In this document: positions 33,733 through 63,537 of the stretch, piece after piece
Numbering within the stretch: position 1 is the stretch's first letter
Layout of the letters: the number at the start of each line of letters is the position of its first letter
Assembly (NCBI GenBank): GCA_003577105.1
Contig: QEUQ01000003.1
Span: 1-64,000, forward strand
Direction of reading: 5' to 3'
Length of the DNA stretch: 64,000 nt
From: Acidobacteriota bacterium
GTDB lineage: Bacteria > Actinomycetota > Acidimicrobiia > ATN3
Translations under genes and position numbers: made by a program
Notes under the pieces: generated by a model
Database searches by the model: none
Seen by the model: only the letters and a program-made list of their open reading frames with translations
What the model was told of the DNA's origin: nothing

Positions 33733-35709
33733 GTGTGCGGCATCGCGGGAATGCTGCTGTTTGACAACGTCAGTGATCGTATCGACCCGATGCTCCTTGG
33801 GCGCATGAGCGACGCCATGATTCACCGGGGACCCGATGCAGCCGGGACCTGGATCGGATCTGATCGGCGCGTCGGTCTTGCTCACCGGCGCCTTTCGATT
33901 GTCGATCTCTCCGATGCCGCCGACCAGCCCATGACCTCAGGTGACGGATCTCTCGTGCTCTGCTTCAATGGCGAGATCTACAACCACGCCGAGCTCCGCA
34001 AGGAATTGAGCGCGCAGGGAGCTGGGCCGTGGTGCACCGATCACTCGGACACCGAGGTAATTCTTCACGCCTATCGAGCATGGGGCCGCTCCTGCTTGGA
34101 CCGCTTCATTGGCATGTTCGCGTTTGGTCTTTGGGATGTGCGTGAGCGGGAGCTCTGGTTGGTGAGGGATCGCATGGGGGTCAAGCCTCTCTATTTCGCG
34201 ATCGATAGCCGCGGTATCGCCTTTGCGTCTGAGATCAAGGCGCTTCTCGAGGATCCGACTCGGAGGCGCGAGGTCAATCCCGAAGCTATGTACCACTTCT
34301 TGTCATTCCTGACGACGCCTGCCCCGAAGACCATGTTTTCCGGAATAGAGAAGCTGGAATGCGGAACGTGGATGCGGGTCAGCACGGAGGGAAGGGTGGA
34401 GCGCCACAGGTGGTGGGATGCTCTGTCCAGCAGCACACCTCAGCCGGGCATCAGCTCGGGCGAGGCGTCGGAGACCTTGATCGAGACCCTGAGGGAGGCG
34501 GTCTCCCTGAGAAAGGTAAGCGATGTGCCGGTCGGGATCTTTCTCTCGGGCGGCGTCGACTCGAGCACCAACGCCGCGTTGTTCGCGGAGACCGAAACAA
34601 GCGGTGCCAGCCAGGTCAAGACGTTTTCGATCGGCTACGCGGATTCGACCGCCACCTACGAGAACGAGTTCAAGTGGGCTCGAGAGGTTGCCGACTACTT
34701 TGGGACCGATCATCACGAGCGGACCTTGGAACTGAACGACCTGCTCCGTTTTCTCCCGCGGATGATCCGCCTTCAAGATGAACCGATCGCAGATCCGGTG
34801 TGCGTACCCGTCTATTACGTGTCCGACCTCGCCCGCAAGAGCGGCGTCATCGTTTGTCAGGTGGGTGAAGGCGCAGACGAGTTGTTTTGGGGGTACCCGA
34901 AATGGCGGTCGGCGCTTGAACGCGAGCGAGCATCGAGGTGGCCGATTCCCAGATTCTTCAAGCGGCTTGCGGTAGGTGGGCTAGGGGCGATCGGACGCGA
35001 CTCGGGATTTCGGTTTGAATGGCTCCGGAGGAGCGCTGCCGGCTTGCCGACATTCTGGGGCGGCGCCGAGGCCTTTCCTGATCGCATCAAGAGGCGCATG
35101 CTTTCGCCGGCTATGCAAAGCGAGTTGAGCGGTATCACTTCGTGGGACGCGCTGGCTCCGATTTGGGATCGGTTCGAGAAGTCGGCGTGGGAACCGTCGC
35201 CTTTGGCATGGATGTCCTACTTGGATCTCAACTTGCGACTGCCCGAGTTATTGCTAATGCGCGTCGACAAAATGAGCATGGGCGCGAGCGTTGAGGCCAG
35301 GGTTCCATTCCTCGACCATAGGGTTGTTGAGCTGGCTCTCGGGCTGCCCGAGTCGGTCAAGACCGAGGGAGGCGTCCTCAAGGGAGTATTGAAGCGCGCG
35401 GTGCGCGGGATGCTCCCAGATGAAGTAGTGGATCGTCCAAAGCAGGGCTTTGGCGTCCCGTCAGAGCAATGGTTCAGATATCGGCTTCGAGATTTCGCGC
35501 GCAGCGAGATCCGCCGATTCTGTGAAGAGTCTGGATTGCTCCAATGGCGCGAGGTGGATCGGGTGGAGCAGGAAATCGAGTCCTTTTCATGGTCGCACAC
35601 TTGGTACCTGTTGAATCTTGCACTTTGGTGGCGTGAATACATAGCGGAGGATTCGATCCCCGAACTAGAGATGAATCGACTCGGGTCCGGCAATTCGCGG
35701 TTCGCCTAA
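33733..35709 (+). CDS. asnB: asparagine synthetase-type glutamine amidotransferase
   Basis: A 658-residue class II amidotransferase. GTG at 33733 directly follows the previous stop and puts Cys2 at the new N-terminus (MCGIAGM). The glutaminase domain shows HRGPDA and NGEIYNH; the synthetase domain has the PP-loop SGGVDSSTNAALF. Within a polysaccharide locus such enzymes often amidate sugar carboxylates or other acids rather than aspartate; here that role is inferred from context. The C-terminus is longer than plain AsnB. Confidence 0.9.
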   Translation: MCGIAGMLLFDNVSDRIDPMLLGRMSDAMIHRGPDAAGTWIGSDRRVGLAHRRLSIVDLSDAADQPMTSGDGSLVLCFNGEIYNHAELRKELSAQGAGPWCTDHSDTEVILHAYRAWGRSCLDRFIGMFAFGLWDVRERELWLVRDRMGVKPLYFAIDSRGIAFASEIKALLEDPTRRREVNPEAMYHFLSFLTTPAPKTMFSGIEKLECGTWMRVSTEGRVERHRWWDALSSSTPQPGISSGEASETLIETLREAVSLRKVSDVPVGIFLSGGVDSSTNAALFAETETSGASQVKTFSIGYADSTATYENEFKWAREVADYFGTDHHERTLELNDLLRFLPRMIRLQDEPIADPVCVPVYYVSDLARKSGVIVCQVGEGADELFWGYPKWRSALERERASRWPIPRFFKRLAVGGLGAIGRDSGFRFEWLRRSAAGLPTFWGGAEAFPDRIKRRMLSPAMQSELSGITSWDALAPIWDRFEKSAWEPSPLAWMSYLDLNLRLPELLLMRVDKMSMGASVEARVPFLDHRVVELALGLPESVKTEGGVLKGVLKRAVRGMLPDEVVDRPKQGFGVPSEQWFRYRLRDFARSEIRRFCEESGLLQWREVDRVEQEIESFSWSHTWYLLNLALWWREYIAEDSIPELEMNRLGSGNSRFA

Positions 35710-35725
35710 TGCGCGGACCTCCAAA

Positions 35726-37051
35726 ATGAACCAGGATTCAAGAGCCGATCGCACGATCGTCGAGGGTGACCGGCTGGCCGAAGGACCCCGGACTCGGGCG
35801 GCGTTTTGGAAGGACGTCGCAGAGACCGCCGCGGCTCGGTTCCTCCTACTTGGGGTGAGCGCCGTCTCGACGATTTTCATTGCCCGGGTCCTCGGTCCAG
35901 ACGGAAGAGGCGCCTACGCAGTTGCAGTGACCATAAGTGCTGTCGGCATTCGTTTTGGCAATCTCGGCTTGCATTCAGCAAACACGTATTTCGTGGCTCG
36001 CGATCGAGCCGATCTGCCGCGTCTGCTAGGGAACTCACTTGTTGTAGGACTTCTAGTTGCCGGCGCAGGGGCGCTCGGAGTCGGACTCATGTTTGTCGCC
36101 GTTCCGCCGATTTCACCGCTGGCCGGCTGGCTTCTCGCGCTGGCACTTGCCTGGGTGCCAATAGGCCTGACCTATTTGCTGCTGCAAAACCTACTTATTG
36201 GGATTGGTGAGATCCGAGCCGTCAACTTGATCGAGATCTTTGGGCGCACCTTGCCTGTGGGTCTCATGCTGGCTCTACTGCTGATCGGCTGGAAGACGCC
36301 TGCCTGGTTCATGGCTGCCGGGTTTGTGGGGCTGGTACTTGCATTCCTGTGGGTGCTGGTCATCTTGGAGCGACGAGCCGAGTGGCAACCGAAGCCCTCT
36401 TTACGGCTGTTCAAGGCGAACATCTCTTTCAGTTTCAAGGCGTACGTCGCAGCATTCTTTGCGTACGTAGTGCTTCGTTCCGATCTGCTGGTCATTTCCT
36501 ATCTGAGAGGATTGGAAGACGTCGGTTACTACTCAGTCGCCGTCTCGATCACCGAGGTTCTTTCAGCGCTGCCAATTGCGATCGGCACCGTATTGTTTCC
36601 GCGGCTCTCAGCACTGGAGTCAGAAGATGACAAACGAAAGATCGCGATTCATGTGGCCGTTATTACGGGATTGCTCCTTGGGGTCGCCAGTCTTGCGGCA
36701 GGCATGCTTGCCAATCCACTTATCTCGTTCCTATTCGGCGCGGATTTCCTTCCCGCATCGTCCGCGTTTGTCTGGCTGCTTCCAGGCATTGTCGCCATCT
36801 CCGTCAATAGGATTTTCATGAACTACTTCGCATCGATGGGGATGCCCGCGGTCACGGTCTGGTCTCCAGCAGCGGCAGCAGCAATCAATGTGGTGCTCAA
36901 CCTAGTTCTGGTACCGCGTCTCGGAATAGTTGGAGCATCGATCACCTCAACGATCGCGTACCTATTGATGCTCTTGACGAGCATCGCGTACATGCGTTTT
37001 GGTTCGCCGCGAACATCAAGCCGCGGGTCTGATTCCCCCGCTGAGGATTAG
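35726..37051 (+). CDS. polysaccharide flippase (Wzx-like, MOP superfamily)
   Basis: A 441-residue membrane protein with about 12 predicted TM helices, beginning with AARFLLLGVSAVSTIFIARVLGPDGRGAYA, the typical first two helices of Wzx/RfbX proteins. It should move lipid-linked oligosaccharide repeat units across the membrane. It starts 16 bp after asnB and ends just before the methyltransferase start. Substrate specificity is unknown. Confidence 0.9.
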   Translation: MNQDSRADRTIVEGDRLAEGPRTRAAFWKDVAETAAARFLLLGVSAVSTIFIARVLGPDGRGAYAVAVTISAVGIRFGNLGLHSANTYFVARDRADLPRLLGNSLVVGLLVAGAGALGVGLMFVAVPPISPLAGWLLALALAWVPIGLTYLLLQNLLIGIGEIRAVNLIEIFGRTLPVGLMLALLLIGWKTPAWFMAAGFVGLVLAFLWVLVILERRAEWQPKPSLRLFKANISFSFKAYVAAFFAYVVLRSDLLVISYLRGLEDVGYYSVAVSITEVLSALPIAIGTVLFPRLSALESEDDKRKIAIHVAVITGLLLGVASLAAGMLANPLISFLFGADFLPASSAFVWLLPGIVAISVNRIFMNYFASMGMPAVTVWSPAAAAAINVVLNLVLVPRLGIVGASITSTIAYLLMLLTSIAYMRFGSPRTSSRGSDSPAED

Positions 37052-37055
37052 CGAA

Positions 37056-37850
37056 GTGCAGAGGAACTCCGCGTCACAGTTCGCTGGGGCAGCAGAAATC
37101 GAAGATGCCTACGGACACAGAAAACGCCTACGCTGGATCAGGTCACATCTCTTGGCCGATGACAGGATCATCGAAATCGGGTGCGGAACGGGGTTCATGC
37201 TTTGTCTGCCTCTCGCGCTTGAGGGGTACGACGTGACCGGAATTGACTTGGATGTAACGAGCATCGAGGAAGGCAAGCGGATCTTCGAGTCGATTGGAGC
37301 AGACCAGTCACGTCTTCGAGCAGTTGATTTCTCTGAGACCGATATTCATCCGGATGTATCGATCGTCTCCGAGGTGCTCGAGCACCTAGAAGGGGATCGC
37401 ATCAAGGACTTGCTTGAAACGATTCGGAAGCGTATGCCAAAGCACGGGCGCTTGTTGGTGACTGTTCCCAATGGATTTGGCTGGTTCGAATTCGAATCGT
37501 TCTTGTGGAACCGAGTTGGGCTTGAATGGCTGGCTCGGAAACTACGCGTGCAGCGAGCACTCGACGCACTCAAGACACGCTGGCTCACCCGGCCATTTCG
37601 ATATTCGTACCCGTCAACGTTTTCAGATAGCGGCCATATTCAGCGCTTCACGCTTCGGTCAATTCAGCGCCTATTGAATGATTCTGGCTTTGAGGTCTTT
37701 GAAGCCACCGGAACAGTGATGTTTGCAGGACCGGTGAGCAACTTGGTTTTTCGGGGTCTCGAAGGGCCCCTTGCTTTCAATGCCCGGCTCGGGTCGCGTT
37801 TTCCGAAGCTGGCAGCCGGGTTTCTTGTCGCCGCGAGAACGGTGAGCTGA
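37056..37850 (+). CDS. class I SAM-dependent methyltransferase
   Basis: A 264-residue methyltransferase. The SAM motif I is IIEIGCGTGFML, followed by TGIDLDVTSIEEG and a DVSIVSEVLEHLEGD motif IV region. I choose GTG 37056 (VQRNSASQF) because GAGGA precedes it by about 9 bp; the frame runs back into the flippase gene. It may methylate a sugar hydroxyl or acid of the repeat unit, which is inferred from the locus. Confidence 0.88.
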   Translation: MQRNSASQFAGAAEIEDAYGHRKRLRWIRSHLLADDRIIEIGCGTGFMLCLPLALEGYDVTGIDLDVTSIEEGKRIFESIGADQSRLRAVDFSETDIHPDVSIVSEVLEHLEGDRIKDLLETIRKRMPKHGRLLVTVPNGFGWFEFESFLWNRVGLEWLARKLRVQRALDALKTRWLTRPFRYSYPSTFSDSGHIQRFTLRSIQRLLNDSGFEVFEATGTVMFAGPVSNLVFRGLEGPLAFNARLGSRFPKLAAGFLVAARTVS

Positions 37851-37854
37851 GATC

Positions 37855-39519
37855 GTGGCGGTCACCGGCGAGGGTTCAAGGTCGCCAACCAAGCTTGTGC
37901 TGACTCGGGATAACGCTGAGATCCCTAGCTCCATTGAGATAGGAGGCTGCGAGGTCTCGCCATTTGAATCGCGACGGGTGTTCTTCAGGAGGCACGGTCT
38001 ACGAAGGTCAATTCACGGCTGGGATGAAGTCTGGATCGTCGTACCCAATCTCGGCGCACTGAGACGCCCGTTCTTGACTCGAGCGCTCGCGTATCTTTGC
38101 GCGCGACGGCGCGCGATCCTTGTCGATTCGAGCGGCAAAACGTCTCCAGTAGGCATCGCATCACTAATTCGCTCTGGCGTTGAGTTCTTGAGAGATCTAT
38201 TGCTCTTGCCGGGCCTCTTGCTTCGGACTAATCGAGACGTTCAGCGGCTTTCATCAGTAGCTCTGCCCAAGGCACCGGAGCTCAGTCCGCTAACTGCCGA
38301 GACGAGATCAGAGATTGCCCGGGAGTTCAAGTCCCCACTTTATCTTCGAACTGACATGGTTCTCGGACTGCGATCGGGTGGTGCGGTCGGTCACATCGCC
38401 GGCGTACTCAATAGTTTTGTGTCGCGAGGGCTAAGACCGACTCTTTTCTCGACAAGCCCGATTCCGACTGTGGATGAGGGAATTGACTTCCACAGATTCG
38501 AGTTGCCGAAGCGCATGTGGAACTTGACTGAGGCGCCACTACTTGCATGTAGCTGCGAGTTTGCAGGCCAGGTGGAGCGGGAATGCGCCGACAGAAAATT
38601 CGACTTCATCTACCAAAGAAGCTCTGTCTATAACTATTGCGGGCTTGCGCTTGCCGAGCGCATGGGGATTCCTCTTGTGACCGAGTACAACAGTCCTGTT
38701 GTGTGGATCAATCGCTACTGGGCAAACCCGCTGCGCTACGAAGCCTTGGCCAAGAAGATAGAGCGAGCCAATCTGCTTGGTAGCAATCTCGTCGTTGTCG
38801 TCAGCAGTTCTCTAAGAGACAGACTCGTTGAAGACGGCGTGCCGAGCTCGCGCATCCTCGTCAATCCAAATGGGGTCAATGTCGAGATGTATTCGCCTGA
38901 TATCGATGGCAGTCAGGTGCGAAACACATATCAATTAGGGTCAGAAACCGTAGTTGGCTTTATTGGCACTTTTGGCAACTGGCATGGTGCAGAAGTTCTG
39001 GCCGAGGCCTTCGGGCAGATACTCGAGCAGGAGCCCGAACGCAGAGACGACCTGAGACTCCTCATGGTTGGCAGTGGCAAGACTCTTCCACTGGTTGAAG
39101 AGGTTGTAGACCGATACGGCATCCGCGACCTGGTGGTTCTTACTGGCACAGTTCCACAGGCCGAAGGGCCCAATTACCTGGCCGCATGCGACATATTGGT
39201 CTCGCCTCAGACTCCCAACGCCGATGGCTCCATGTTCTTCGGTTCGCCGACAAAGATGTTCGAATACATGGCGATGGGGAGGGGGATCGTTGCTTCGGAT
39301 CTCGGTCAAATTGGCGAGGTACTGACCCACCGTGAGACGGCAATTCTCGTCGACCCGGGCGATGCAAAGGACCTGGCCCGGGGGATACGGACCCTAATTG
39401 ACGATGTGGAGTTGCGCGAGAGACTCGGAAGCGCCGCCCGCAAGGAGGCGGTCGAGAAGCACACATGGGCGCGCCACGTCGACCGGATCATGGAGGCGCT
39501 TGAAGGCCGTGCGCCATGA
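37855..39519 (+). CDS. glycosyltransferase, family 4, with N-terminal extension
   Basis: A 554-residue protein from GTG 37855. Residues about 165-545 are a GT-B glycosyltransferase: SGGAVGHIAGVLNSFVSRG, ILVNPNGVNVEMYSPD, VGFIGTFGNWHGAEVLAEAF, LLMVGSGKTLPLVEEVV and GSPTKMFEYMAMGRGIVASDLGQIGEVL. The first 160 residues are an extra domain with hydrophobic stretches of uncertain role, making the protein longer than usual. It overlaps the next gene by 4 bp (ATGA). Confidence 0.9.
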   Translation: MAVTGEGSRSPTKLVLTRDNAEIPSSIEIGGCEVSPFESRRVFFRRHGLRRSIHGWDEVWIVVPNLGALRRPFLTRALAYLCARRRAILVDSSGKTSPVGIASLIRSGVEFLRDLLLLPGLLLRTNRDVQRLSSVALPKAPELSPLTAETRSEIAREFKSPLYLRTDMVLGLRSGGAVGHIAGVLNSFVSRGLRPTLFSTSPIPTVDEGIDFHRFELPKRMWNLTEAPLLACSCEFAGQVERECADRKFDFIYQRSSVYNYCGLALAERMGIPLVTEYNSPVVWINRYWANPLRYEALAKKIERANLLGSNLVVVVSSSLRDRLVEDGVPSSRILVNPNGVNVEMYSPDIDGSQVRNTYQLGSETVVGFIGTFGNWHGAEVLAEAFGQILEQEPERRDDLRLLMVGSGKTLPLVEEVVDRYGIRDLVVLTGTVPQAEGPNYLAACDILVSPQTPNADGSMFFGSPTKMFEYMAMGRGIVASDLGQIGEVLTHRETAILVDPGDAKDLARGIRTLIDDVELRERLGSAARKEAVEKHTWARHVDRIMEALEGRAP

Positions 39520-41774
39520 GTTTGCGGGTCCAGGTCCGGAGAGCTTTGGAACTCGGCCCGGCGGAGGCAGCCAAGCGTGCAGCCGAAATGGTCAATCGCG
39601 ACATGACCGGGCTGATCGAGCGCCTTCGCAATCTGAAGATACCGAGCCGCTCAAGCGATTGTGATGTGCCAAATGCACCTCTGCGCGGCGTAGGTGAAGT
39701 ACCTCCGGTAGCAACGCTTCGGCGTCGTGCCGAGGACATCAGGCTTCTCAGCGAGTGCTGGCTTGCGCATCACTTCGATCTTCTTGGAAGCGGATGGACC
39801 AAGGTGGGATATGGCGTCGAGTGTCGCGGCCTCGAAGGGATCCGATTTCGCCCCGGAGCAACGGTTTTGGCGACTTCAGATGGCTCTTGGTTGAAGGCCG
39901 TCGTCCGCAAAGTTGATCTCGAGGAGTCCCGGCAGATCTGGGCTCTCATCGAAGGCGCATACGAACCGATCGATTGGCAGCTGGATTTCAAGTCTGGGTA
40001 TCGATGGCGGTCGAAGCGCCCCGCTTCGCTCCTACGCTACGGCGACGTCGAGGGTGCAGACGTCAAGGTGCCGTGGGAACTCGCGCGCATGCAGCACTTG
40101 CCCGTCTTGGCCTTCGCCTACGCACTTGCCAAGGCCGGTGAGGAGGATTTCCGGCCACCCTCCTCGTATCTAAACGAGTTCAGGAATCAGGTCTTGGATT
40201 TTGCGGCCAGCAATCCTCCCGGGTATGGAGTCAACTGGCGCTGCACAATGGACGCCGGGATCCGCATCGCAAACCAGGCAGTTGCGTGGTCGCTCTTTGA
40301 ATCGGCGGGAGCTCAATTCGACTCCGGTTTCGAAGCGGTCTATCGCAAGTCCCTCCTCGACCATGGCCGCTACATAGCGGCCAATCTCGAGTGGCGTCGT
40401 GAACTTCGCTCAAATCACTACCTTTCAGACATCGTTGGCCTGCTCTTCGTGGCCGCGCATCTCCCGCCGTCGCCAGAAGCCGATGCATGGTTGGCGTTTG
40501 GGTCAAGGGAACTGGTGAGCGAAATCCAACTTCAGTTTCACGAGGACGGATCCAACTTCGAAGGTTCGACCGCGTACCACCGGCTCTCAGGCGAACTTGC
40601 ATTGTGGGGAACCGCTGTTGTCTTAGGTGTGGGTGCCGAGCGGCAGCAGGCATTTAAGGCGTTTGATCCGACTCATGTCACCAGCGGTCCAGATTTCGCG
40701 CAGTCCTCGATCGAGCTCTATAGCGTTTCCGGTGAGTGCGTCACCGATCAGGAATTGCATGCCACTCCCTTTCCCGATTGCCACTTCTCGCGTTTGGCTC
40801 GGATGGTCGAATTCGCGCGTGCAATTACCCGACCTGATGGAGCGATCGTCCAGTTCGGAGACAATGACAGCGGGCGCCTTTTCAAGCTCGAGCCCAAGCT
40901 GCAGCTTCTCACTACGGCGGAGATCCGCGAACGCTTTGCCGGCTTTGACGATTGGATTCCCCCTCCTGGTGTCAACCTGACTCCGGTCGAGGACCATCTC
41001 ACTAGTGAGGAGCTGATCGCGTGCGGCGGCGCTCTCGTCGGCAGTTCTTCTGGGGGCGCATCCAATGGGCGAGATAGTTTGGCGGTCAACGTATTCGAGA
41101 GCGTTTCTGGTCGCTTCCGGACAGGCTGGCTTGAAAAGCCGAGTAGATCAGAGCCGCGTGTCTCGGCCGGTGATCGGCCACCGATTCCAGCAAGCGCACG
41201 AACCTATCGGTTCGAAGCTGATTCCGGGCTGCGGATTGGACTCGAGCACCTCGCGTTTCCGGGAATGGGCGTATATGTGATGCGCTCGAACCGCGTCTTC
41301 ATCGCCGTTCGATGCGGGAGCGTCGGGCAGAACGGCAACGGCGGGCACGCCCACAACGATCAGCTCGCGATCGAGCTTGTCATTGACGGAGGGGTCCTGC
41401 TCAGAGATCCGGGCACGTACATATACACACCGCTTGTCGCCCGTAGGAACGAATACCGTTCTGTGCGGGCGCATTTTGTTCCGAGAGTAGACGGCCGAGA
41501 GCCTGGCGAAATCTCATCGGGGACTTTTCGTCTAGTGGACCGAGCGCATGCGAAATGCGAATTCTTTAGCGACGGCGTTTTTGCCGGAACTCATACGGGC
41601 TATGGCGAAGCGGTCTGGCGGCAGGTTGAGATATCTGATGAGGCCGTGGTTGTCTCCGACTGGTACGAAGGCACCGAAGAGCTTGCGAGCTGGGAGCCCC
41701 CGGCATTTTCGCCCGGATACGGCCTTCGACTGCGAGAACCCGATGCGGTCCCGATGGCCTCAACGGAGGCCTGA
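39516..41774 (+). CDS. heparinase II/III-family polysaccharide lyase-like protein
   Basis: A 752-residue protein. Residues about 120-400 form an (alpha/alpha) toroid with ANLEWRRELRSNHYLSDIVGLLF and FHEDGSNFEGSTAYHRLSGEL, the conserved N-H-Y and Tyr-His motifs of the family. The beta-sandwich part includes GHAHNDQLAIELVIDGGVLLRDPGTYIYTP. Members cleave uronic-acid polysaccharides. In biosynthetic loci they may trim, release or epimerise the polymer. No signal peptide is apparent, so its location is open. Overlaps its neighbours at both ends by 1-4 bp. Confidence 0.88.
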   Translation: MSLRVQVRRALELGPAEAAKRAAEMVNRDMTGLIERLRNLKIPSRSSDCDVPNAPLRGVGEVPPVATLRRRAEDIRLLSECWLAHHFDLLGSGWTKVGYGVECRGLEGIRFRPGATVLATSDGSWLKAVVRKVDLEESRQIWALIEGAYEPIDWQLDFKSGYRWRSKRPASLLRYGDVEGADVKVPWELARMQHLPVLAFAYALAKAGEEDFRPPSSYLNEFRNQVLDFAASNPPGYGVNWRCTMDAGIRIANQAVAWSLFESAGAQFDSGFEAVYRKSLLDHGRYIAANLEWRRELRSNHYLSDIVGLLFVAAHLPPSPEADAWLAFGSRELVSEIQLQFHEDGSNFEGSTAYHRLSGELALWGTAVVLGVGAERQQAFKAFDPTHVTSGPDFAQSSIELYSVSGECVTDQELHATPFPDCHFSRLARMVEFARAITRPDGAIVQFGDNDSGRLFKLEPKLQLLTTAEIRERFAGFDDWIPPPGVNLTPVEDHLTSEELIACGGALVGSSSGGASNGRDSLAVNVFESVSGRFRTGWLEKPSRSEPRVSAGDRPPIPASARTYRFEADSGLRIGLEHLAFPGMGVYVMRSNRVFIAVRCGSVGQNGNGGHAHNDQLAIELVIDGGVLLRDPGTYIYTPLVARRNEYRSVRAHFVPRVDGREPGEISSGTFRLVDRAHAKCEFFSDGVFAGTHTGYGEAVWRQVEISDEAVVVSDWYEGTEELASWEPPAFSPGYGLRLREPDAVPMASTEA

Positions 41775-42952
41775 TGCCAAGCGTTCATGCTCTGTTCGGC
41801 TCATCCAATTACTGGGGATCGCCAGTAAAGGTAGGCAGCCATCACTTGGCAACTGGCTTGGTTCGCCGCGGCTGGCGAGTCGGGTACGTCTCTGACCCGA
41901 TTTCTCCTTTCCATGTCATGAAGCCCAGCTCAGAACTGCGCCAGCGTGTTCAGATTTGGCGGAGTGGCGGGGTAGACGACCTCGACGGATCGCTATGGGC
42001 ATACGTGCCCGGCGCGATCGTTGTTCCTGATCCGAGATGGCCCTTCAGGCACCCCACGGTTGCCGCTCGCTGGGCCGCTGCGTCAGTGCCAAGGCTTTCC
42101 AGAGTCCTCACAAAGCATGGATTCTCTACCGTGCAGTTGCTTTGCATAGACAGTTTGGTGCTAGTGCCGCTTGCGGAAATGGTGGAATCGAAGTGCCTCG
42201 TCTATCGAATGGCGGACCGGGCCTCAGGATTCCCGGATTTCACACCCGCGATTGCGCGAGCCGAAGCCGCACTTATCGCCCGAGCCGACCTGGTTGCATG
42301 CAGTTCGGAGGGGCTTGTAAATCACGCTCAGGACCTCGGCGCGTCCAATGCCGTATTGGTGCAAAACGGAGTCGACTTCGACCTGTTTTCGACGCCGACA
42401 GGCGCGATTCCGCCCGAGTACAAGGATCTCGACGGACCAATCGCGGTCTATGCCGGTACCGTCGACTACTGGTTTGATGATTCGCTGATAGTCGCTGCCG
42501 CCAAAGCGCTTCCAGAAGTGACCTTTGTAGTGATTGGTCCCGGTGGACCGGACAGCTCGACGCTGCGCGTACAGCGGAATGTGATGGTACTTGGACCGCG
42601 ACCCCACGCATCTCTTCCGTCATATTTGCAGCATGCCGATGTGGGGCTCATTCCCTTGAGAGCTAGAGATCTCCAGGAACGCCTGGAGACTGCGCGGTCA
42701 CTGAAGCTGTTTGAGTATCTGGCGGCGGGCCTTCCCGTTGTTGCCACGTCCTGGACAGAGATCGAGCGGCTCGGCTCTCCGGCTGTGCTGACTCAAGGCA
42801 CTGGGGAGTTCGTCGAGGCCCTCGAGTCGACGCTCGCCTCGTCGGTGGATAGGGCGGAAATGGTTGACTACGCCCGCGGATTCGATTGGGGTGATTCGGT
42901 GGACCTACTCATTGCCAACGTCACCAAGTTCTTGGGTGAGGGTGAGAGCTGA
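41774..42952 (+). CDS. glycosyltransferase (GT-B)
   Basis: A 392-residue transferase whose ATG shares one base with the preceding stop. GT-B features: N-terminal ASSVHALFGSSNYWGSPVKVGSH-type start, CSSEGLVNHAQDLGASNAVLVQNGVDFDLF, YAGTVDYWFDDSLIVAAAKALP, and LETARSLKLFEYLAAGLPVVATSW. It resembles the TuaH-like (teichuronic acid) group. It is followed without a gap by the next transferase, which overlaps its stop if a CTG start is used there. Confidence 0.88.
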   Translation: MPSVHALFGSSNYWGSPVKVGSHHLATGLVRRGWRVGYVSDPISPFHVMKPSSELRQRVQIWRSGGVDDLDGSLWAYVPGAIVVPDPRWPFRHPTVAARWAAASVPRLSRVLTKHGFSTVQLLCIDSLVLVPLAEMVESKCLVYRMADRASGFPDFTPAIARAEAALIARADLVACSSEGLVNHAQDLGASNAVLVQNGVDFDLFSTPTGAIPPEYKDLDGPIAVYAGTVDYWFDDSLIVAAAKALPEVTFVVIGPGGPDSSTLRVQRNVMVLGPRPHASLPSYLQHADVGLIPLRARDLQERLETARSLKLFEYLAAGLPVVATSWTEIERLGSPAVLTQGTGEFVEALESTLASSVDRAEMVDYARGFDWGDSVDLLIANVTKFLGEGES

Positions 42953-55614: not shown

Positions 55615-57726
55615 ATGGCCAGTGACGAGACATCCAAGGAAGTTGTCGATAACGACACTGAGGAGGAAGAGGCCAAGGCAAAGCCTACAGCCAAACCTCC
55701 TGCAGCCAAGGGCAATGGAAATGGTTCGAGCGGCACATCCGACGGCACGAAGTGGCTCGTGATCGTAGTCGCACTCGTTGTCGGCGTTGTGCTCGGCGTG
55801 CTTGGAGCGAGACTCGGAGGGAGTGCCGCGAGCGCAGGCCGCCTGTCCGATGTCGCATCTGAGCGAGGGCTGACCGGCGATCAAGCTGAAGCCGCTCTCG
55901 AGACGTTTGTCGCTCCGGGGAAGTACGACGATTACTTCCTATTTGCTTCAGGCGGGCACTCCGGGCAAATACACGTGATCGGTGTGCCATCGATGCGCCT
56001 GCTCAAGACTCTCCCGGTCTTCACGAGCGAGGCCTGGAGTGGATACGGATTCGGATCTGACCTGAGCGAAAAGGTGCTCCAAGAGGGCTCGAACCCCGAG
56101 AAGAGCAATCAGCTAGGTTGGGGCGATGCTCACCACCCGGCTCTGTCTGAAAAGAACGGTGATTACGACGGTCGTTTCATCTACATAAATGACCGCGCCA
56201 ACGGCCGGCTCGGCATGGTCGATCTGCGGGACTGGAAGGCCAAGCAGATCATTGACATCCCGAATTCACAGACTTCACACGGAGGCGTGTTCGTAACGCC
56301 AAACACGGAATACGCTCACATCTCGTCTATGACCCCTCGTCCGAACACTCCGTCAGGGTATGCCGACTTGAATGAGTACAAGGACAAGTTCCGAGGCGTA
56401 TCCAGCTTCGTCAAGATCAACCAGGAGTCAGGAAAGGGCGAATGGGACAAGAGCTTCCAAATTGAGCTCCCGCCGTACACCCAAGATCTAGCTGACGCCG
56501 GCAAGAAGGTCTCGCATGGCTACGCGTTTATCAACTCGTACAACACCGAGATGGCGACCGGCGGCAACATGGAAGGCAAGCCTCCTCTCGAAGTAGGCGC
56601 AATCCAGAACGACTTCGACTTCATGCATGTGATCAACTGGGAGAAGGCCGCCCAGGTTGTCGAGCAGGGCAAGTTCGAGAACGTAAACGGCGCCCGGATG
56701 ATCCGGCTCGATACCGCGATCAAGGAAGGCCTCTTGCATTTCGTGCCAGAGCCTCGCAACCCTCATGGTGTAGATGTCTCACCCGACGGAAGCTATATCA
56801 CGGTCTCCGGGAAGCTTGATCCGCACACGAGCGTCTACTCGATGGACAAGATCAAGAAGGCGATTGAGAACAAGACCTACGACGGCACTGATCAATTCGG
56901 AGTTCCGATCTTGAAGCTTGACGAGGTTCGTGAGGCCTATGTTGAGCTGGGTGCTGGTCCATTGCACACTCAGTACGACGCTGACGGAAACGCTTACACG
57001 AGCCTCTTCGTCGAGTCGGCAATCGCAAAGTGGACGCTTGGGCCGAACGCAGGAGTCTCTGGCGACAAGGCCTGGAAGCTAGTCGACAAGATCCCGGTTC
57101 AGTACAACATCGGCCACCTGGTGACACCTGAAGGCGACACCGTGAGCCCCGATGGCAAGTACGTCGTGGCTCTGAATAAGTGGTCGATCGACAGGTATCC
57201 CGATGTCGGGACCTTGCATCCACAGAACTTCCAGCTCATTGACACAACTGGCTCGAAGATGAAGCTGTTGGCGGATATGCCGATTGGTTTTGGTGAGCCG
57301 CATTACGTCCAGATCATCAAGCGCGACAAGATCAAGGACGCGCTCAGGGTGTACTCACCTGGTACCGATCCGCTCACGATGCAGGCTTCGTCTGTGGCTA
57401 CAAAGCCTGGCCAGGAGCGCGTTGAACGCAACGGCAAGGATGTCGACGTCTACATGGTTGCCATGAGGTCGAACTTCAAGCCCGACGTGGTTCGGGTGAA
57501 GAAGGGAGACCACGTCAGGCTCCACGTAACCAACATCGAGACAGCGCAAGATGCAACTCACGGCTTCGCGATCCCCGGTTACGACAAGCAGGTCAGCTTG
57601 GATCCGGGCGAGGTGATCACCGTCGAGTTCGATGCGAACAGAGCTGGCACCTTTGGCTTCTACTGCACCGAGTTCTGCTCGGCACTCCACCTGGAGATGC
57701 AGGGCTGGTTGCTAGTAGAACCGTAG
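55615..57726 (+). CDS. nosZ: nitrous-oxide reductase, membrane-anchored (Sec/clade II type)
   Basis: Copper enzyme reducing N2O to N2 outside the membrane, 703 residues. CuZ ligands are complete: His173, His174 (DAHHP), His222 (SHGG), His384 (NPHG), His451 (LHTQ), His501 (GHLV), His563 (EPHY). CuA ligands are His649, Cys684, Cys688, His692 and Met695 in CTEFCSALHLEM. No RR motif exists; instead an acidic/Pro-rich tail of 45 residues precedes one TM anchor (46-68), so export is probably Sec-type and the enzyme membrane-tethered. This is the clade II pattern, with CTEFC rather than the CSWFC of classic enzymes. AAGGAGG precedes ATG 55615. Confidence 0.97.
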   Translation: MASDETSKEVVDNDTEEEEAKAKPTAKPPAAKGNGNGSSGTSDGTKWLVIVVALVVGVVLGVLGARLGGSAASAGRLSDVASERGLTGDQAEAALETFVAPGKYDDYFLFASGGHSGQIHVIGVPSMRLLKTLPVFTSEAWSGYGFGSDLSEKVLQEGSNPEKSNQLGWGDAHHPALSEKNGDYDGRFIYINDRANGRLGMVDLRDWKAKQIIDIPNSQTSHGGVFVTPNTEYAHISSMTPRPNTPSGYADLNEYKDKFRGVSSFVKINQESGKGEWDKSFQIELPPYTQDLADAGKKVSHGYAFINSYNTEMATGGNMEGKPPLEVGAIQNDFDFMHVINWEKAAQVVEQGKFENVNGARMIRLDTAIKEGLLHFVPEPRNPHGVDVSPDGSYITVSGKLDPHTSVYSMDKIKKAIENKTYDGTDQFGVPILKLDEVREAYVELGAGPLHTQYDADGNAYTSLFVESAIAKWTLGPNAGVSGDKAWKLVDKIPVQYNIGHLVTPEGDTVSPDGKYVVALNKWSIDRYPDVGTLHPQNFQLIDTTGSKMKLLADMPIGFGEPHYVQIIKRDKIKDALRVYSPGTDPLTMQASSVATKPGQERVERNGKDVDVYMVAMRSNFKPDVVRVKKGDHVRLHVTNIETAQDATHGFAIPGYDKQVSLDPGEVITVEFDANRAGTFGFYCTEFCSALHLEMQGWLLVEP

Positions 57727-57801
57727 ATTCCACTCAAGAAATCATGTCCCGTGGGGTGGGCGGCATGGTCAAGCGCCATAGCCGTCCACCTCCAGGGCAT
57801 G

Positions 57802-57820
57802 TGTCAGCTGTGAGCTGACA
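57802..57820 (+). promoter_or_regulatory. strong stem-loop between nosZ and the next nos gene
   Basis: TGTCAGCT-GTG-AGCTGACA is a perfect 8-bp stem with a 3-nt loop, 21 bp before the ATG at 57842 and in the 115-bp gap after nosZ. It lacks a T-tract. It may terminate part of the transcription or protect the nosZ message, making more NosZ than assembly proteins; this is inference. Confidence 0.55.
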
Positions 57821-57841
57821 GCGCAAGTAGGAAGGCAAGAA

Positions 57842-58636
57842 ATGACTAGGGCGGGGGCCCGCAACGTGGCGGCCATTGACGAAATTAACGACGAAGAAGT
57901 AGCTGAAGTCGAACTCGAATCCGACGAATCGCTGGCAACGTCCGCCGACGAGCTGGCGACGATCGAAGAGCCCGATACTGACGACGATGATCGCGACCAA
58001 GACGTTGGCAAGGTGCGCAGGCAGTTCTCCTTGCCGGCTCGAATCACTAGTGGCGTTATTGCTGCAATCTTTGTGGTGATCGCCTATGGCATGCCGATCT
58101 GGGTGACCAAGCTAAGGGCGCCTCAATATCCTGCCGGACTCGAGCTATCTGCCTATGGCAATCGCGTTGCAGGCGATGTATTCGAGGTCGATACGCTCAA
58201 TCACTACATCGGCATGCGCCCATTCCGATTCGATGAAGTGCCAGAAGCCAAGCTATGGCCGGTCGCGATTATCTTGGCTCTCGCCGCGATTGCGGTATCG
58301 ACAATTGCCGGACGCGGATGGCTCGGCAGGCTCAGCAGGCTGTATCTCTGGCTGATGCCGGTCGGCGTGCTGCTCAACGTTCAGTACAGGCTTTACGACT
58401 ATGGCCACCATCTCGATCCGGGAGCAGCCCTGAGGCTGAAGCCATTCACCCCGTTGGTGATCGGGCCGACCAAGGTGTGGAATTTCACCGCCTGGTCAAT
58501 GCCCGGAACCGCATTGATCGTGATCTTCGCGGCCGGGGCAGTTCTTACATTTGGGCCGAGGTTGGTGGATCTGGTTATTGGGAAGCTCCGAGGTGCAACG
58601 GAGACGGGCGAGCGGGCCGTAGCAGAGTCGGGATGA
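57842..58636 (+). CDS. four-TM membrane protein of the nos operon (NosB-like position)
   Basis: A 264-residue protein. Residues 12-56 are strongly acidic and cytoplasmic. Four TM helices follow: about 68-88, 139-157, 166-183 and 222-243. Two motifs stand out on the outer side: LNHYIGM (119-125) and YGHHLDP (187-193), with histidines that could bind copper or contact NosZ. Atypical nos clusters carry a membrane protein at this place, called NosB in Wolinella; I infer equivalence from position and topology, not from sequence comparison. It overlaps nosD by 4 bp (ATGA). Confidence 0.75.
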   Translation: MTRAGARNVAAIDEINDEEVAEVELESDESLATSADELATIEEPDTDDDDRDQDVGKVRRQFSLPARITSGVIAAIFVVIAYGMPIWVTKLRAPQYPAGLELSAYGNRVAGDVFEVDTLNHYIGMRPFRFDEVPEAKLWPVAIILALAAIAVSTIAGRGWLGRLSRLYLWLMPVGVLLNVQYRLYDYGHHLDPGAALRLKPFTPLVIGPTKVWNFTAWSMPGTALIVIFAAGAVLTFGPRLVDLVIGKLRGATETGERAVAESG

Positions 58637-60234
58637 GGCGCAGAGCCGCTATCGCGGCCGTCGCCCTTTCGCTGCTAGCCATCTCTTCCCAGGGTCTGGC
58701 TGTTGCCGCAGCCCCCGGTGGCGACAGTCAGCAATCGGGGCGGGGTTCGAGCGAAAGCTATCGGCCCCGCCCCATTACATACCCGCAGGTTCCAGAGGTG
58801 CCGGTTGAGGTAGTAACGGGTCCCCGATTCGCGAAGGGGGAGATCGAACGGCGCGTGAGTCAGGCCTCCCCAGGCGAAACTGTCTTCCTTGATGAAGGCA
58901 TCTACGAAGCTCCCGCGACGATTGACAAGTCCGTTCGGATTGAGGGATTTGGCAAGGCAGTGGTTGACGCCGGGGGGCAGGGGACTGTCTTGACTGTAAG
59001 GGCTCCTGACGTGACCCTCAGCGGGCTGGTCGTTCGGAATAGCGGCATCGGACCGGTCGGGGGACCAATGGGAATCCGGATCGAGGCAGATCGGGCACAA
59101 GTCATTGGCAGCTATGTGTACGACATCTATACCGGCATCGGCGTCTTTGGAGCGAAGGGCGTCCAGGTGGTCGGCAATGTGGTCAGGGGGCGGGGGCGGG
59201 GAGCGATCCTCGACGAGGGCCATGCGACTGGCTCAGACGGCGGAAGTGAATCCTACGACGGCGAGCGTATCCAGCGCGGCGACGCTATCTCGTTCTGGGA
59301 CTCAACTGCAGTCCTCGTCAGGGGTAACCGGGTCCTGAAAGCCCGCGACGGGATTTACACGTCTTTCGGCGCTGAGATGTTGGTCGACGGCAATCTTGTC
59401 GAGACAAGCCGGTACGCGCTGCACACGATGTTCACCAAAGACGTGACTGTGGTCGAGAACGGCTTTCGCGGAAACCTTTCGGGGGCTGTCCTGATGTACG
59501 GGGGGCCGGTTCTCATGCTGAGAAACGCGCTCGAGCGAAATCACTCTCCCTCCACTGGCTTTGGAGTGCTGGTCAAGGACGTAAACGCAGTCGAACTGAA
59601 CTCAAATGTGATTTCCGAGAACAGGGCTGGCGTGAGTCTCGAAGGGCAAAGCGACCCCGCGACGAAGGTGACCATGAACACCGTGGCTCTCAACCAAATT
59701 GGGATTCTGTTGCAGCCAACCGCACAGGCCGTATTCAGCGTCAACAGTTTCGTCGACAACACGACGCAGGTTGTCGCTCAAGGCACTGAAGTTCAGGGCA
59801 AGAATCAATGGTACGACCGCGGCATTGGCAACTACTGGTCAAATTACAAGGGATATGACCATGTGGGCGAAGGCCTCGGAGACGTAGAGCACGCCGAAGG
59901 CGGTTCAGTCGCGACGCTGATCGCAAAGAGTCCGGTACTCGAGGCTCTAGCTTCAAGCACCGCATTCAGGATGGTCGGTGCCGTGGAGGATCGCTGGGCC
60001 GGCAAGCGTCCGGTCGCACTTGATCCCAAGCCGATGATGGAGCCCCGGTCGCCAAAGCTAGAGGCCGAGGCAAACCGGGGAGCCGCAGCGCTAGGGCGCG
60101 CCCTCGCGATCGTAGGTTTGCTCGCCGGGATCCTTCTTGTTGTCAGAATGCGCGCTCCGGCTCGCCGAGCACCCCGGAGCGAAGCCTCGGGGAATTCACG
60201 AGCTCAGATTTTCAACGCCCGATGGAGGAGGTGA
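58633..60234 (+). CDS. nosD: nitrous-oxide reductase maturation protein NosD
   Basis: A 533-residue protein that works with NosF and NosY in CuZ assembly. It has an N-terminal signal peptide (MRRRAAIAAVALSLLAISSQGLAVAA), then a right-handed parallel beta-helix of carbohydrate-binding/sugar hydrolase repeats (PGETVFLDEGIYEAP, YVYDIYTGIGVFGAKGVQVVGN, NQWYDRGIGNYWSNYKGYD). The end has a TM helix (about 494-512) and a basic tail. NWYD...YWSNYxGYD is a NosD hallmark. It begins at ATG 58633; the frame extends upstream to 58255 inside the previous gene. 3 bp precede nosF. Confidence 0.95.
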   Translation: MRRRAAIAAVALSLLAISSQGLAVAAAPGGDSQQSGRGSSESYRPRPITYPQVPEVPVEVVTGPRFAKGEIERRVSQASPGETVFLDEGIYEAPATIDKSVRIEGFGKAVVDAGGQGTVLTVRAPDVTLSGLVVRNSGIGPVGGPMGIRIEADRAQVIGSYVYDIYTGIGVFGAKGVQVVGNVVRGRGRGAILDEGHATGSDGGSESYDGERIQRGDAISFWDSTAVLVRGNRVLKARDGIYTSFGAEMLVDGNLVETSRYALHTMFTKDVTVVENGFRGNLSGAVLMYGGPVLMLRNALERNHSPSTGFGVLVKDVNAVELNSNVISENRAGVSLEGQSDPATKVTMNTVALNQIGILLQPTAQAVFSVNSFVDNTTQVVAQGTEVQGKNQWYDRGIGNYWSNYKGYDHVGEGLGDVEHAEGGSVATLIAKSPVLEALASSTAFRMVGAVEDRWAGKRPVALDPKPMMEPRSPKLEAEANRGAAALGRALAIVGLLAGILLVVRMRAPARRAPRSEASGNSRAQIFNARWRR

Positions 60235-60237
60235 GCG

Positions 60238-60909
60238 ATGGCTGAAGACAAGGCGGCTGCACCTCTTCTTGCGGTTGAGGACTTGGTGAAGTCCTATGGC
60301 AAGAATCAGGTTCTGAGTGGAGTCACCTTCTCGGTAGAGAAAGAAAGCATCGTCGCACTTGCTGGGTCCAATGGCTCCGGCAAGAGCACGCTTCTGCGCT
60401 GTCTCTCTGGTGCGTTGCAGTTTCAGGGCACTGCGAAGCTGGTCGGCCGTGACTTGCGGACTCGACCCGCTATCAGACGGCTGCTCGGATACCTACCTCA
60501 ACAAGTCACCCTTCCTGAGTCGGTGACTGCCTATGAGGCTCTGCTCTTCTTTGCCCGCCTCCGCGGTGCTGACGTTGATGAGCTGATACTCCCCGACGGG
60601 TTCTTGCCGGACCTCAACGCCCGCGTCGGTACGTTCTCTGGGGGGCAGCGCCAACGTGTAGCGATTGCGATCTCGCTTCTCGGACGTCCGCCGCTGCTTC
60701 TCCTCGACGAACCGGTGGCAAACCTCGACGAGCGGGGGCGCGAGGAGTTCTGGAAGACCCTTACGGAATTGCGGGACTCTGGGACCTCAGCCTTGATAGC
60801 GAGCCCTTCACCAGGCGACCTCGGTGCGGCGCCGGACCGGATCATTACTTTGGCTGATGGCGAGATCGAGTCCGACGAATCGTGGGCGGGGGACAAATCC
60901 GGTGACTGA
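60238..60909 (+). CDS. nosF: ABC transporter ATP-binding protein NosF
   Basis: A 223-residue ATPase. Walker A is GSNGSGKST (43-51), the signature is FSGGQRQRVAIAISLL, Walker B is LLLLDEPVANLDE, and the Q-loop is in LGYLPQQVTLPE. With NosY and NosD it forms the NosDFY complex needed to load the CuZ site, probably by supplying sulfur or a Cu-S unit. GGAGG precedes the ATG. It overlaps nosY by 8 bp. Confidence 0.94.
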   Translation: MAEDKAAAPLLAVEDLVKSYGKNQVLSGVTFSVEKESIVALAGSNGSGKSTLLRCLSGALQFQGTAKLVGRDLRTRPAIRRLLGYLPQQVTLPESVTAYEALLFFARLRGADVDELILPDGFLPDLNARVGTFSGGQRQRVAIAISLLGRPPLLLLDEPVANLDERGREEFWKTLTELRDSGTSALIASPSPGDLGAAPDRIITLADGEIESDESWAGDKSGD

Positions 60910-61765
60910 CAACGTCGATACTCCAACGGTCCCGACCACATGGCAAGACATCAGGACCATCGCGGGCTGGGAGCTTCGTGGCGCAATCAGAAGCCGATGG
61001 GTTCTGGGGACAGCCATCGCCTTTGCAGCAGCCGCAGTTCTCGTCTCGCTCCTTGGATTGCGGTCACTTCGAGAACTTGGACTAAGTGGTGTAGGCCCCG
61101 GTTCGGCGGGTCTGCTCAACCTGGCAGTCCTCTTCCCTCCGTTGATCGGACTGCTCCTGGGCGCTAATAGCATCGTCAATGCGCGCGAGCGGGGAGTCTT
61201 GGCGATGATCGCGGCACAACCGGTTTCGCGCTTTGCATACGCCGCCGGGGTCTTCTTAGGTCTGTCAGCCGCAGTCTGGACAACCTTGCTGATCGGCTTC
61301 AGCCTTGCTGCTGTAGTAGTCGCGGGGCCTGCGCAAGTAAGGGATCTTGGCGCGTTGCTTTCGATTGCCGGGGCATCTCTCTTGGTTGCGACTGTGGCTG
61401 TGGCCCTCGGCATGGCAATCTCGGCCCTGAGTGCCAGCAGAACTCAGGCAGCATCTTTCGCTACGGCAGTCTGGTTTGTGCTTGCTTTGGGCATGGACTT
61501 GGCTCTTGCTGGGGTCGCGTCGAGCATTCGACTGGGACCGGGCGCCCTGATGGCAGTGATTCTTCTCAATCCAGTTGAAGCTGCCCGCGTTCTCGCGCTC
61601 CTTGCCGCGAGTCCCGACGGTGGCACTCTTGGTCCATTCGGCGCTTATTTGGTCAATACCTACTCGGTGGGAGGAGCTGCGGCAATTCTCATCAGCGCAA
61701 TGGCGGCCTGGGCGATCGTCCCGGTCATGGTTGCGTGGTGGGTTGTTTCACGCCGAGATATCTAG
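60902..61765 (+). CDS. nosY: ABC transporter permease NosY
   Basis: A 287-residue permease starting at GTG 60902 inside the nosF end. It has six TM helices: about 25-50, 58-85, 100-125, 140-165, 172-197 and 255-280. Seen: WELRGAIRSRWVLG cytoplasmic start, NLAVLFPPLIGLLLGANSIVNARERGVLAMI, typical of NosY. It completes NosDFY. The longer frame from 60824 is a shadow of nosF. It ends 4 bp before the convergent membrane-protein gene, closing the nos operon. Confidence 0.93.
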   Translation: MTDNVDTPTVPTTWQDIRTIAGWELRGAIRSRWVLGTAIAFAAAAVLVSLLGLRSLRELGLSGVGPGSAGLLNLAVLFPPLIGLLLGANSIVNARERGVLAMIAAQPVSRFAYAAGVFLGLSAAVWTTLLIGFSLAAVVVAGPAQVRDLGALLSIAGASLLVATVAVALGMAISALSASRTQAASFATAVWFVLALGMDLALAGVASSIRLGPGALMAVILLNPVEAARVLALLAASPDGGTLGPFGAYLVNTYSVGGAAAILISAMAAWAIVPVMVAWWVVSRRDI

Positions 61766-61769
61766 GGGT

Positions 61770-62264
61770 TCAGCCCATGGGCGGCGGAGCAGGGTGCTGA
61801 GCTGCTCCGGCCCAGCCGCCACGCCCAATGCCGGTACTAGCGTAGCTGGGTATTGCCGGGGGTTCCGGTGACCAGATCCAGCGAAAGCTCGGCGGAATAA
61901 CAAGCAGTATCAGCGCAGTGATCGAGCCAAGCCCAATGCCGAGTCGGACAATGTCAGTTCCGAAAAGCCCAGCGCGCGGGGTAAATAGAAATGAGATCGA
62001 CGACAGCCCAAGTGCGACCACAAGGATCACCCACCCGGTCTTGGAGCCGTTTCGTATCGCAAATGCGGACCACGTGATGGCAATTGCATAGGTCCATACC
62101 AAGAAGACGATCAACCACACGAAGCCAAGCCCGGGCGTATCTGCGGGAAGGGAAGCGCTCGCAACAAAGAGAAGAAAACTAAGAAACGCGATCGCCAGAA
62201 TATTGAGAATGCCGATGACCGACGCGATCACCGACGCGATCTGAATGTACTGATTTGACTTCAT
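61770..62264 (-). CDS. four-TM membrane protein, function unknown
   Basis: A 164-residue protein of four TM helices (about 8-32, 42-66, 72-96 and 108-128) and a Pro/Ala/Gly-rich C-terminal tail of about 30 residues (GYASTGIGRGGWAGAAQHPAPPPMG-like). It starts 4 bp after the sensor gene, so the two are probably co-expressed. No family is recognised. Confidence 0.7.
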   Translation of the reverse strand: MKSNQYIQIASVIASVIGILNILAIAFLSFLLFVASASLPADTPGLGFVWLIVFLVWTYAIAITWSAFAIRNGSKTGWVILVVALGLSSISFLFTPRAGLFGTDIVRLGIGLGSITALILLVIPPSFRWIWSPEPPAIPSYASTGIGRGGWAGAAQHPAPPPMG

Positions 62265-62268
62265 GGCC

Positions 62269-63537
62269 CTATTCGACCGGGCGCAATGGCGTCACACTCG
62301 CAATAGGCTCGTCGACGCCGCGCAGTACGGGCAGGCGGACCGTGTAGCGTCTGCCTTCCTCGGTTGCTTCTTGCTGCACCGAGCCCCCGGCCTCCTCCAC
62401 TAGCGTCATGACGATCGGAAGTCCGATTCGCCCTCTTCCCGCCGGGTGCAGTCGGCGGGGCCGGCTTTCGTCTGCGCTGAGTCCGCTTTGGTCTTCCACG
62501 GAAAACTCGACCCAGGCGCCATGGCGAATCGCACGAAGAGTCATTCGTGTATTCGGCGGCGCCGATCGCCACGCATTTAGCATCAGGTTGGCGACAATCC
62601 GCTCCAGGATACGGCTTTCCATGTCTACCAGGACCCCGGTGTCTCCCTCTATCCGCACACGCGGACCCGGTAGGTTCGGCAGTAGCTCAGGCGCCCTGGC
62701 TATCACCCTGTCGAGCTCGGCGGGCCACACATTCTCTTCGGGGAGCGAGGCTGAAGGCTCTTGGTCCGGCTCAGCACCGCGGGCGACGGGCTCTGCGATC
62801 GTTTCGCCGAACTTGTCGGCGAGGTTCTCAATCTCGGCGGAAAAAGCGTTGCGCTTGGACTCGTCCAGGTCGCTCCAAATCTCGACCAAAGCCGATGCGA
62901 GTCCTGCCAGCTTCTGCCACGGTGCAGAGCCTGGGAGGGTGAGCGACTCGATATTGGTCGTCTTTTCGATCTCATGCGCGGCAGCGCGAGCGAGAGCCTT
63001 CATCAGTTGGATGTCGGACTTCGGGATCGCGCGAGGGTTTGGGTCGTAGGCGCCAAGGGTTCCAAAAAGGCGGCCGTCGGCGAACATGATCGGGACGCCG
63101 ATGTAGGCGCCGACGTTTGATCGCCGGCCTCGATCCGCGAAGTGATCGTCGGAGAGCGCATCGGGAACTGAGACGGGACTGCGCAGTGCTACGACATCTG
63201 CCTCGAACCTCGATGCGAGATCGACAGCCGTTCCCGGGCGCAGCCCGCTTTGGGACATCCCGGCTACGGCCTCTACGACAAGGGAATCCTCGTCAAGTCG
63301 ACCCATGATGACGAGCGGATACGACATCTGTGATTGCGCGACCTGAAGGAGGTCGAAGAGCGCGAGACCGGTACTCTCGTATCCGATCGAGACGAGTTCG
63401 GCGAGCTTGGGATTCTCGGCCAAATTGAGTCCTTGGCGAGCTCTCTCCCCGGTTGCCAGCCGGCTTACATAGCTCACTGGGAATCTGGGGACGATCTCAT
63501 GTGAGCCGGCAATTTGATTATCGGATCGTGACCCCAT
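62269..63537 (-). CDS. GAF-domain sensor with histidine-kinase-type ATPase domain, no H-box seen
   Basis: A 422-residue cytoplasmic protein. Residues about 20-180 are a GAF domain (GAYIGVPIMFADGRLFGTLGAYDPNPRAI). The central helical region (190-250) has no clear phosphoacceptor histidine in the expected place. The C-terminal ATPase domain (300-415) has the N-box RIVANLMLNAWRSA, a G1-like VEDQSGLS and G2 box GRIGLPIVMTLVEEAGGSV. It may be an atypical kinase, or use ATP-binding only, or its H-box may be too diverged to see. No partner regulator gene is adjacent. ATG 63537 is used. Confidence 0.8.
   Translation of the reverse strand: MGSRSDNQIAGSHEIVPRFPVSYVSRLATGERARQGLNLAENPKLAELVSIGYESTGLALFDLLQVAQSQMSYPLVIMGRLDEDSLVVEAVAGMSQSGLRPGTAVDLASRFEADVVALRSPVSVPDALSDDHFADRGRRSNVGAYIGVPIMFADGRLFGTLGAYDPNPRAIPKSDIQLMKALARAAAHEIEKTTNIESLTLPGSAPWQKLAGLASALVEIWSDLDESKRNAFSAEIENLADKFGETIAEPVARGAEPDQEPSASLPEENVWPAELDRVIARAPELLPNLPGPRVRIEGDTGVLVDMESRILERIVANLMLNAWRSAPPNTRMTLRAIRHGAWVEFSVEDQSGLSADESRPRRLHPAGRGRIGLPIVMTLVEEAGGSVQQEATEEGRRYTVRLPVLRGVDEPIASVTPLRPVE

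Follow-up and report, generated by a model that had tools for sequence, protein, structure and literature searches.

An intact clade II nitrous-oxide reductase operon from a NosL-free, mostly cupredoxin-bearing actinobacterial clade

A clade II nosZBDFY operon in the window

We analysed a 64,000-nucleotide stretch of DNA (positions 1 to 64,000 of contig QEUQ01000003.1, assembly GCA_003577105.1; hereafter the window) from a genome that GTDB assigns to the class Acidimicrobiia of the phylum Actinomycetota, with a focus on its nitrous-oxide reductase (nos) genes. Five intact reading frames, all in one direction, occupy positions 55615-61765 in the order nosZ, nosB, nosD, nosF and nosY:

55615-57726, + strand: nosZ, clade II Sec-type nitrous-oxide reductase, 703 aa (TIGR04246, ligands, tree, transmembrane helix)
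57727-57841, no strand: nosZ-nosB gap, 115 bp, empty; a cupredoxin gene lies at the same place in ten relatives
57842-58636, + strand: nosB, four-helix membrane protein, 264 aa (motifs, alignment with relatives, four helices in the model, position)
58633-60234, + strand: nosD, periplasmic maturation protein with a signal helix and a C-terminal transmembrane segment (PF05048, TIGR04247, 7o0y_A)
60238-60909, + strand: nosF, ABC ATPase, 223 aa (PF00005, position, homology to nosF of relatives)
60902-61765, + strand: nosY, ABC permease (PF12679, 7o0y_D)

A first-pass annotation, made from the letters of the window, had proposed a complete atypical nos operon at this place, and the set of intact clade II genes bears this out. 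NosZ scored 787.9 bits against the Sec-type model TIGR04246 (cut-off 625); the Tat-type model TIGR04244 gave 439 bits, under its cut-off of 625, and the clade III (lactonase-type) model NF052460 gave 227 bits, under its cut-off of 700. Alignment to 1QNI showed that all seven CuZ His residues are kept, as are the CuA His, two Cys, His and Met, in agreement with the ligand set read earlier from the sequence. These CuZ and CuA residues are invariant across 48 aligned NosZ proteins. In the same alignment, the position of the CuA Trp is occupied by Glu in the window NosZ, and likewise in nearly all rows outside clade I. The N-terminus was also inspected for a twin-arginine motif, and none was found; it holds the protein's one transmembrane helix (residues 47-65), an N-terminal membrane anchor, so the anchor in place of a twin-arginine signal that had been reported is confirmed. 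By model score and tree position (see below), the window NosZ is a clade II, or atypical, enzyme.

The remaining maturation genes were assigned by profile and structure. NosD matched Pfam NosD PF05048 at 105.6 bits, TIGR04247 at 280 bits (slightly under the cut-off of 300) and the solved NosD 7o0y_A with an E-value of 5.9e-27, and NosY matched 7o0y_D of the solved NosDFY complex with an E-value of 3.1e-18. The likeliest start of nosD is the ATG at 58633, which overlaps the nosB stop, and nosY probably starts with the GTG at ~60902, earlier candidates being 60857 and 60824. The window therefore carries what looks like a functional clade II nosZBDFY operon, its activity being predicted from sequence.

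The four-helix membrane protein noted earlier ahead of NosD, NosF and NosY is NosB. This assignment was made by signature motifs and position, with no direct alignment to Wolinella NosB: the protein carries APQYP, LNHYIGM and YGHH, the NosB signatures quoted in PMC9697520 are LNHYIGM and YGH(N/H) or YGHN, and nosB lies between nosZ and nosD in most relatives' loci. The predicted structure (model m8ac78b5aad34, 57842-58636) has four membrane helices. A PDB sequence search with NosB gave no match, and a structure comparison of the model gave none at E<=0.001. The model shows a weak likeness to the claudin/TARP four-helix fold (TM-score ~0.35-0.5), and we drew no function from so faint a resemblance. 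In two genomes of the same class, G001 and G025, NosB and NosD form a single in-frame protein of 687 and 701 residues, respectively (L053:12024-14087 and L052:9665-11770), with the NosB helices first and the NosD domain after them. Because the two are one protein in these members of the NosZ clade described below, NosB may act within the NosDFY copper machinery. NosB-NosL fusions in other bacteria are cited in PMC9697520, and both kinds of fusion would place NosB with the handling of copper and not with the oxidation of quinol.

Genes absent from the locus and the genome

The first-pass annotation had reported that the window lacks NosL, NosR, NosX, cytochrome c and iron-sulfur proteins. A search through the whole 2.87-Mb source genome (95% complete, 104 contigs) found neither NosL (PF05573) nor FMN_bind (PF04205, NosR), with no separate search aimed at NosX, and the reported absence of NosL thus extends to the entire genome. 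The haem motif CxxCH and the motif CxxCxxCxxxC occur in no gene called within the window, in line with the reported lack of cytochrome c and iron-sulfur genes there, and no NosG/H or NosC-like genes were seen at the locus. The lack of NosR and NosX had been taken as a possible sign of a different route. This did not hold up, since clade II clusters are normally without NosR and NosX (PMC9697520). Two further components, usual or frequent yet not obligatory in clade II clusters, are also missing: nosL from the whole genome, and linked c-type cytochromes or Fe-S proteins from the window.

Absence of NosL and linkage of a cupredoxin in an actinobacterial clade

We surveyed clade II NosZ in the class (296 genomes) and in a sample taken across the phylum (397 genomes) and read the gene neighbourhoods. 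Full-length clade II NosZ was found in 22/296 and 16/397 genomes, respectively. In the NosZ tree, the window falls inside an all-actinobacterial clade of 13 genomes (support 100/99) that comprises the window, two genomes of its class (G001 and G025) and ten from other classes of the phylum. The actinobacterial context claimed earlier is confirmed. Clade I rows split from the rest of the tree at 100/100, and a clade I placement of the window NosZ, which had been named as an outcome that would count against an atypical enzyme, is clearly not what the tree gives. The other nosZ-bearing genomes of the class make up a second lineage, placed close to Thermomicrobium, Planctomycetota and Myxococcota. 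The window NosZ is 72% identical to its nearest relative, and its end branch (0.32) is the longest in the clade.

The two lineages differ sharply in what accompanies nosZ. NosL is present in 0/13 genomes of the window's clade, eight of which are >=90% complete and <=5% contaminated, versus 20/20 genomes of the other lineage. Of the loci long enough to be read (12 in the window's clade, 17 in the other lineage), a linked monoheme cytochrome c was found at 0/12 versus 17/17, and a linked cupredoxin at 11/12 versus 0/17, the window being the sole readable clade locus without the latter. Fisher values on these counts describe the pattern and do not count independent events. The survey rejects the idea that NosL was overlooked through genome incompleteness and shows that its absence is real and a trait of the lineage. 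As to whether other copies of the locus have nosL or a cytochrome gene adjacent, as the first-pass annotation had asked, the answer is divided: both stand at every assessable locus of the other lineage and at none in the window's clade.

The cupredoxin as probable electron donor in the clade

In ten relatives, a lipoprotein cupredoxin is encoded between nosZ and nosB, and in an eleventh (G425) it lies upstream on the opposite strand. Alignment of the first eight showed H79, C113, H118 and M123, the positions of a type-1 copper site, to be invariant, and all eight have a lipobox-like signal. Their profile matched the NirK-tethered cupredoxin, auracyanin and plastocyanin in the PDB. A more diverged version occupies the same nosZ-nosB place in G321, G448 and G506. 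Weak matches to a cytochrome c profile inside the cupredoxins of L052, L053 and L161 were discounted, as these are cupredoxin sequences without CxxCH; a shared lipoprotein N-terminus is the likely cause. There is precedent for a small blue-copper donor in pseudoazurin, a known NosZ donor in Paracoccus (PMC6530538). The electron donor in the window's clade is probably a small blue-copper protein, and the simplest reading of the linkage pattern is that the cupredoxin takes the place of cytochrome c in this role.

Candidate carriers and a possible copper route in the source genome

At the window locus, no cupredoxin was found within 9 kb upstream or in the downstream sequence. Because the operon is without the clade's cupredoxin, the donor in the source genome, as far as gene content goes, must be an unlinked carrier. 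The suggestion that missing partners might lie elsewhere in the genome proved right for cytochromes c and wrong for NosL and the NosR domain. One cytochrome c is encoded on the operon's own contig (C30:82471-83001), 21 kb downstream and just beyond the window, and anchored or lipoprotein cytochromes c on C30, C65 and C25 are candidate carriers, as are unlinked cupredoxins on C40 and C104. C65 also carries a Rieske/cytochrome b/dihaem QcrC region encoding a bc complex, and genes for cytochrome c assembly are close by. The electron donor was rightly called an open question in the first-pass annotation, but it is less mysterious than stated there, given the bc complex, the cytochromes c, the unlinked cupredoxins and the cupredoxin of the clade's operons.

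None of the genome's candidate carriers is clearly orthologous to a nos-linked carrier. The C104 cupredoxin was considered as a relocated operon gene, which its score did not support (87 bits versus 162-193 for linked cupredoxins of the same type). Identity of one of the genome's own cytochromes with the nos-linked cytochrome c of the other lineage was rejected (<=36 bits versus mostly 150-217).

For copper, Sco and PCuAC genes stand side by side on C9, and this pair could deliver copper in the source genome. Sco as a general substitute for NosL was rejected, since G001 has no Sco and G025 a weak match only. Deleting nosL is reported to have an effect solely when copper is limiting (PMC6530538).

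Two proteins of the haem-copper oxidase family are encoded in the genome: an aa3-type oxidase and one that is CcoN-like. No NO reductase belonging to this family was seen there. A CcoN-CcoO-like fused protein of 665 aa (L081:7363-9360, contig C65, - strand) adjoins a CcoP-like anchored cytochrome c, near the bc complex. The membrane domain of the fusion holds a single His (404), so that the haem and CuB ligands expected in a terminal oxidase seem to be missing.

A proposed pathway and its alternatives

Gene content, ligands, phylogeny and linkage pattern are as observed above. From them we infer the activity, donor and copper route of an intact clade II nosZBDFY operon in a NosL-free, mostly cupredoxin-bearing actinobacterial clade, and consider it probable that the system works as follows. 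Sec would export NosZ, which would remain held by its anchor at the external side of the membrane. NosDFY and NosB would mature CuZ without NosL, and CuA might be loaded by the genome's Sco/PCuAC pair. The bc complex would oxidise menaquinol, and a small one-electron carrier would then reduce CuA. In most of the clade this carrier would be the operon's cupredoxin; in the source genome, the part would fall to one of the unlinked cupredoxins on C40 and C104 or to one of the anchored c-type cytochromes on C30, C65 and C25. CuZ would be the site at which N2O is converted to N2. For the wider claim, that Actinobacteria hold a distinct NosZ lineage in which CuZ matures without NosL and a dedicated blue-copper protein, tethered to the membrane and encoded between nosZ and nosB, supplies the electrons, we find belief and doubt about equally warranted.

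Several observations weigh against this pathway. The window's own operon is without the cupredoxin, and the C104 cupredoxin resembles H/M-rich cupredoxins from genomes of the other lineage while not being clearly the same gene. Sco is not general in the clade, as G001 and G025 show. Furthermore, presence and absence were scored over a single tree and could go back to just one or two events. The same pattern might also be explained by an ordinary clade II operon whose donor is an unlinked cytochrome c, the relatives' cupredoxin being incidental. The Wolinella system is one of the clade II systems that use a bc complex and c-type cytochromes (PMC13274427, citing Hein 2017), and the source genome encodes a bc complex together with several cytochromes c, but a cupredoxin at the same place in ten loci across several families is hardly incidental, and we regard this explanation as doubtful. 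It is unlikely, too, that the linked cupredoxin stands in for NosL as a copper chaperone, with c-type cytochromes supplying electrons in all members. Such a role would fit the mutual exclusion of NosL and cupredoxin between the two lineages, their shared character as small lipoproteins with Met/Cys/His ligands, and the c-type cytochromes of a source genome that has no linked cupredoxin. However, both the H-C-H-M ligands and the solved proteins closest to the cupredoxin are those of electron carriers, and the locus loses cytochrome c together with NosL.

The exceptional state of the window raises the question of whether the nos operon is decaying in the source genome, its carrier gene lost and no working N2O reductase left. 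The window is indeed the only readable clade locus without a linked cupredoxin, and its NosZ has the longest end branch. Against this stand five intact frames, the presence of every metal ligand, a NosZ that still keeps 72% identity to its nearest relative, and candidate carriers elsewhere in the genome, all of which make decay very unlikely. That NosL and a linked carrier exist and were missed in an incomplete draft is barely credible. The genome is 95% complete and in 104 contigs, which allows for some loss, but NosL is missing from all 13 clade members, the same search shows it throughout the other lineage, and the nosZ-nosB gap lies inside one contig.

Genes near the locus

Two genes converge on nosY from the - strand in the window, one for a small membrane protein (61770-62264) and one for a protein with GAF and histidine-kinase-ATPase domains (62269-63537); this is a possible sensor. 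An Rrf2-family regulator directly follows nosY in G025 (L052:13314-13796) and G001 (L053:15631-16074), and many genomes of the other lineage also have one close to nosZ; the window has none there. A WhiB regulator is encoded on the same contig as the operon (L054:15175-15450, contig C30:79175-79450), which supports an actinobacterial origin of C30. Farther upstream, a run of genes at 33733-42952 includes an asparagine synthase, glycosyltransferases and a heparinase-like protein and is probably a surface-polysaccharide cluster.

Comparison with known systems

Among enzymes, N2O reductase is chiefly responsible for the destruction of the greenhouse gas N2O, and where it can work is limited by its copper supply and its electron donor. 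A NosL-free lineage with a cupredoxin in the place of cytochrome c would allow a direct, single-gene test of what feeds NosZ, and the NosL-free clade offers a natural case of how CuZ forms without a dedicated chaperone. A 2014 survey listed no nosZ in Actinobacteria (PMC4250227), and later work reported nosZ in actinobacterial draft genomes (PMC12008989). Both nosZ in such drafts and clusters without nosL are already known. Clusters without linked nosL occur in acidophilic methanotrophs (PMC11102522) and in Schinkia (PMC13274427), where N2O is respired or NosZ expressed. Unlike the window, the methanotroph clusters said to lack nosL resemble clade I, and in Schinkia nosL is missing in only three of the four clusters; the available passages of both accounts describe no lineage-wide loss of NosL and no replacement by a cupredoxin. 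A NosZ lineage of Actinobacteria that is NosL-free and cupredoxin-bearing was not found described in the open-access literature that we searched.

The gene order of the window recurs in a haloarchaeal cluster on a Natronorubrum plasmid (L069), with nosZ, a NosB-like gene, nosD, nosF and nosY and no nosL within 4 kb on each side; its NosZ, unlike that of the window, is Tat-type and groups with clade I. The clade II system of Wolinella succinogenes shares NosB, NosDFY and a bc complex in the genome (PMC13274427, citing Hein 2017), but has NosG/C1/C2/H, whose NosG/H and NosC-like counterparts are not seen at the window locus. Closer to the window are the clusters of the other class lineage (20 genomes, e.g. 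L035-L050), which have the order nosZ-B-D-F-Y and a clade II NosZ at 52-55% identity. They differ in having nosL in every genome, a lipoprotein-type monoheme cytochrome c at each of the 17 readable loci and often an Rrf2 regulator, and never a cupredoxin between nosZ and nosB. The clade II cluster of Thermomicrobium roseum (NC_011961.1) likewise runs nosZ-nosB-nosD...nosY; its NosZ is Sec-type (52% identity to the window NosZ), NosR is missing, and the annotation shows neither a cytochrome c nor an Fe-S gene within 9 kb. It departs from the window in carrying nosL after nosY, and its NosZ falls outside the window's clade.

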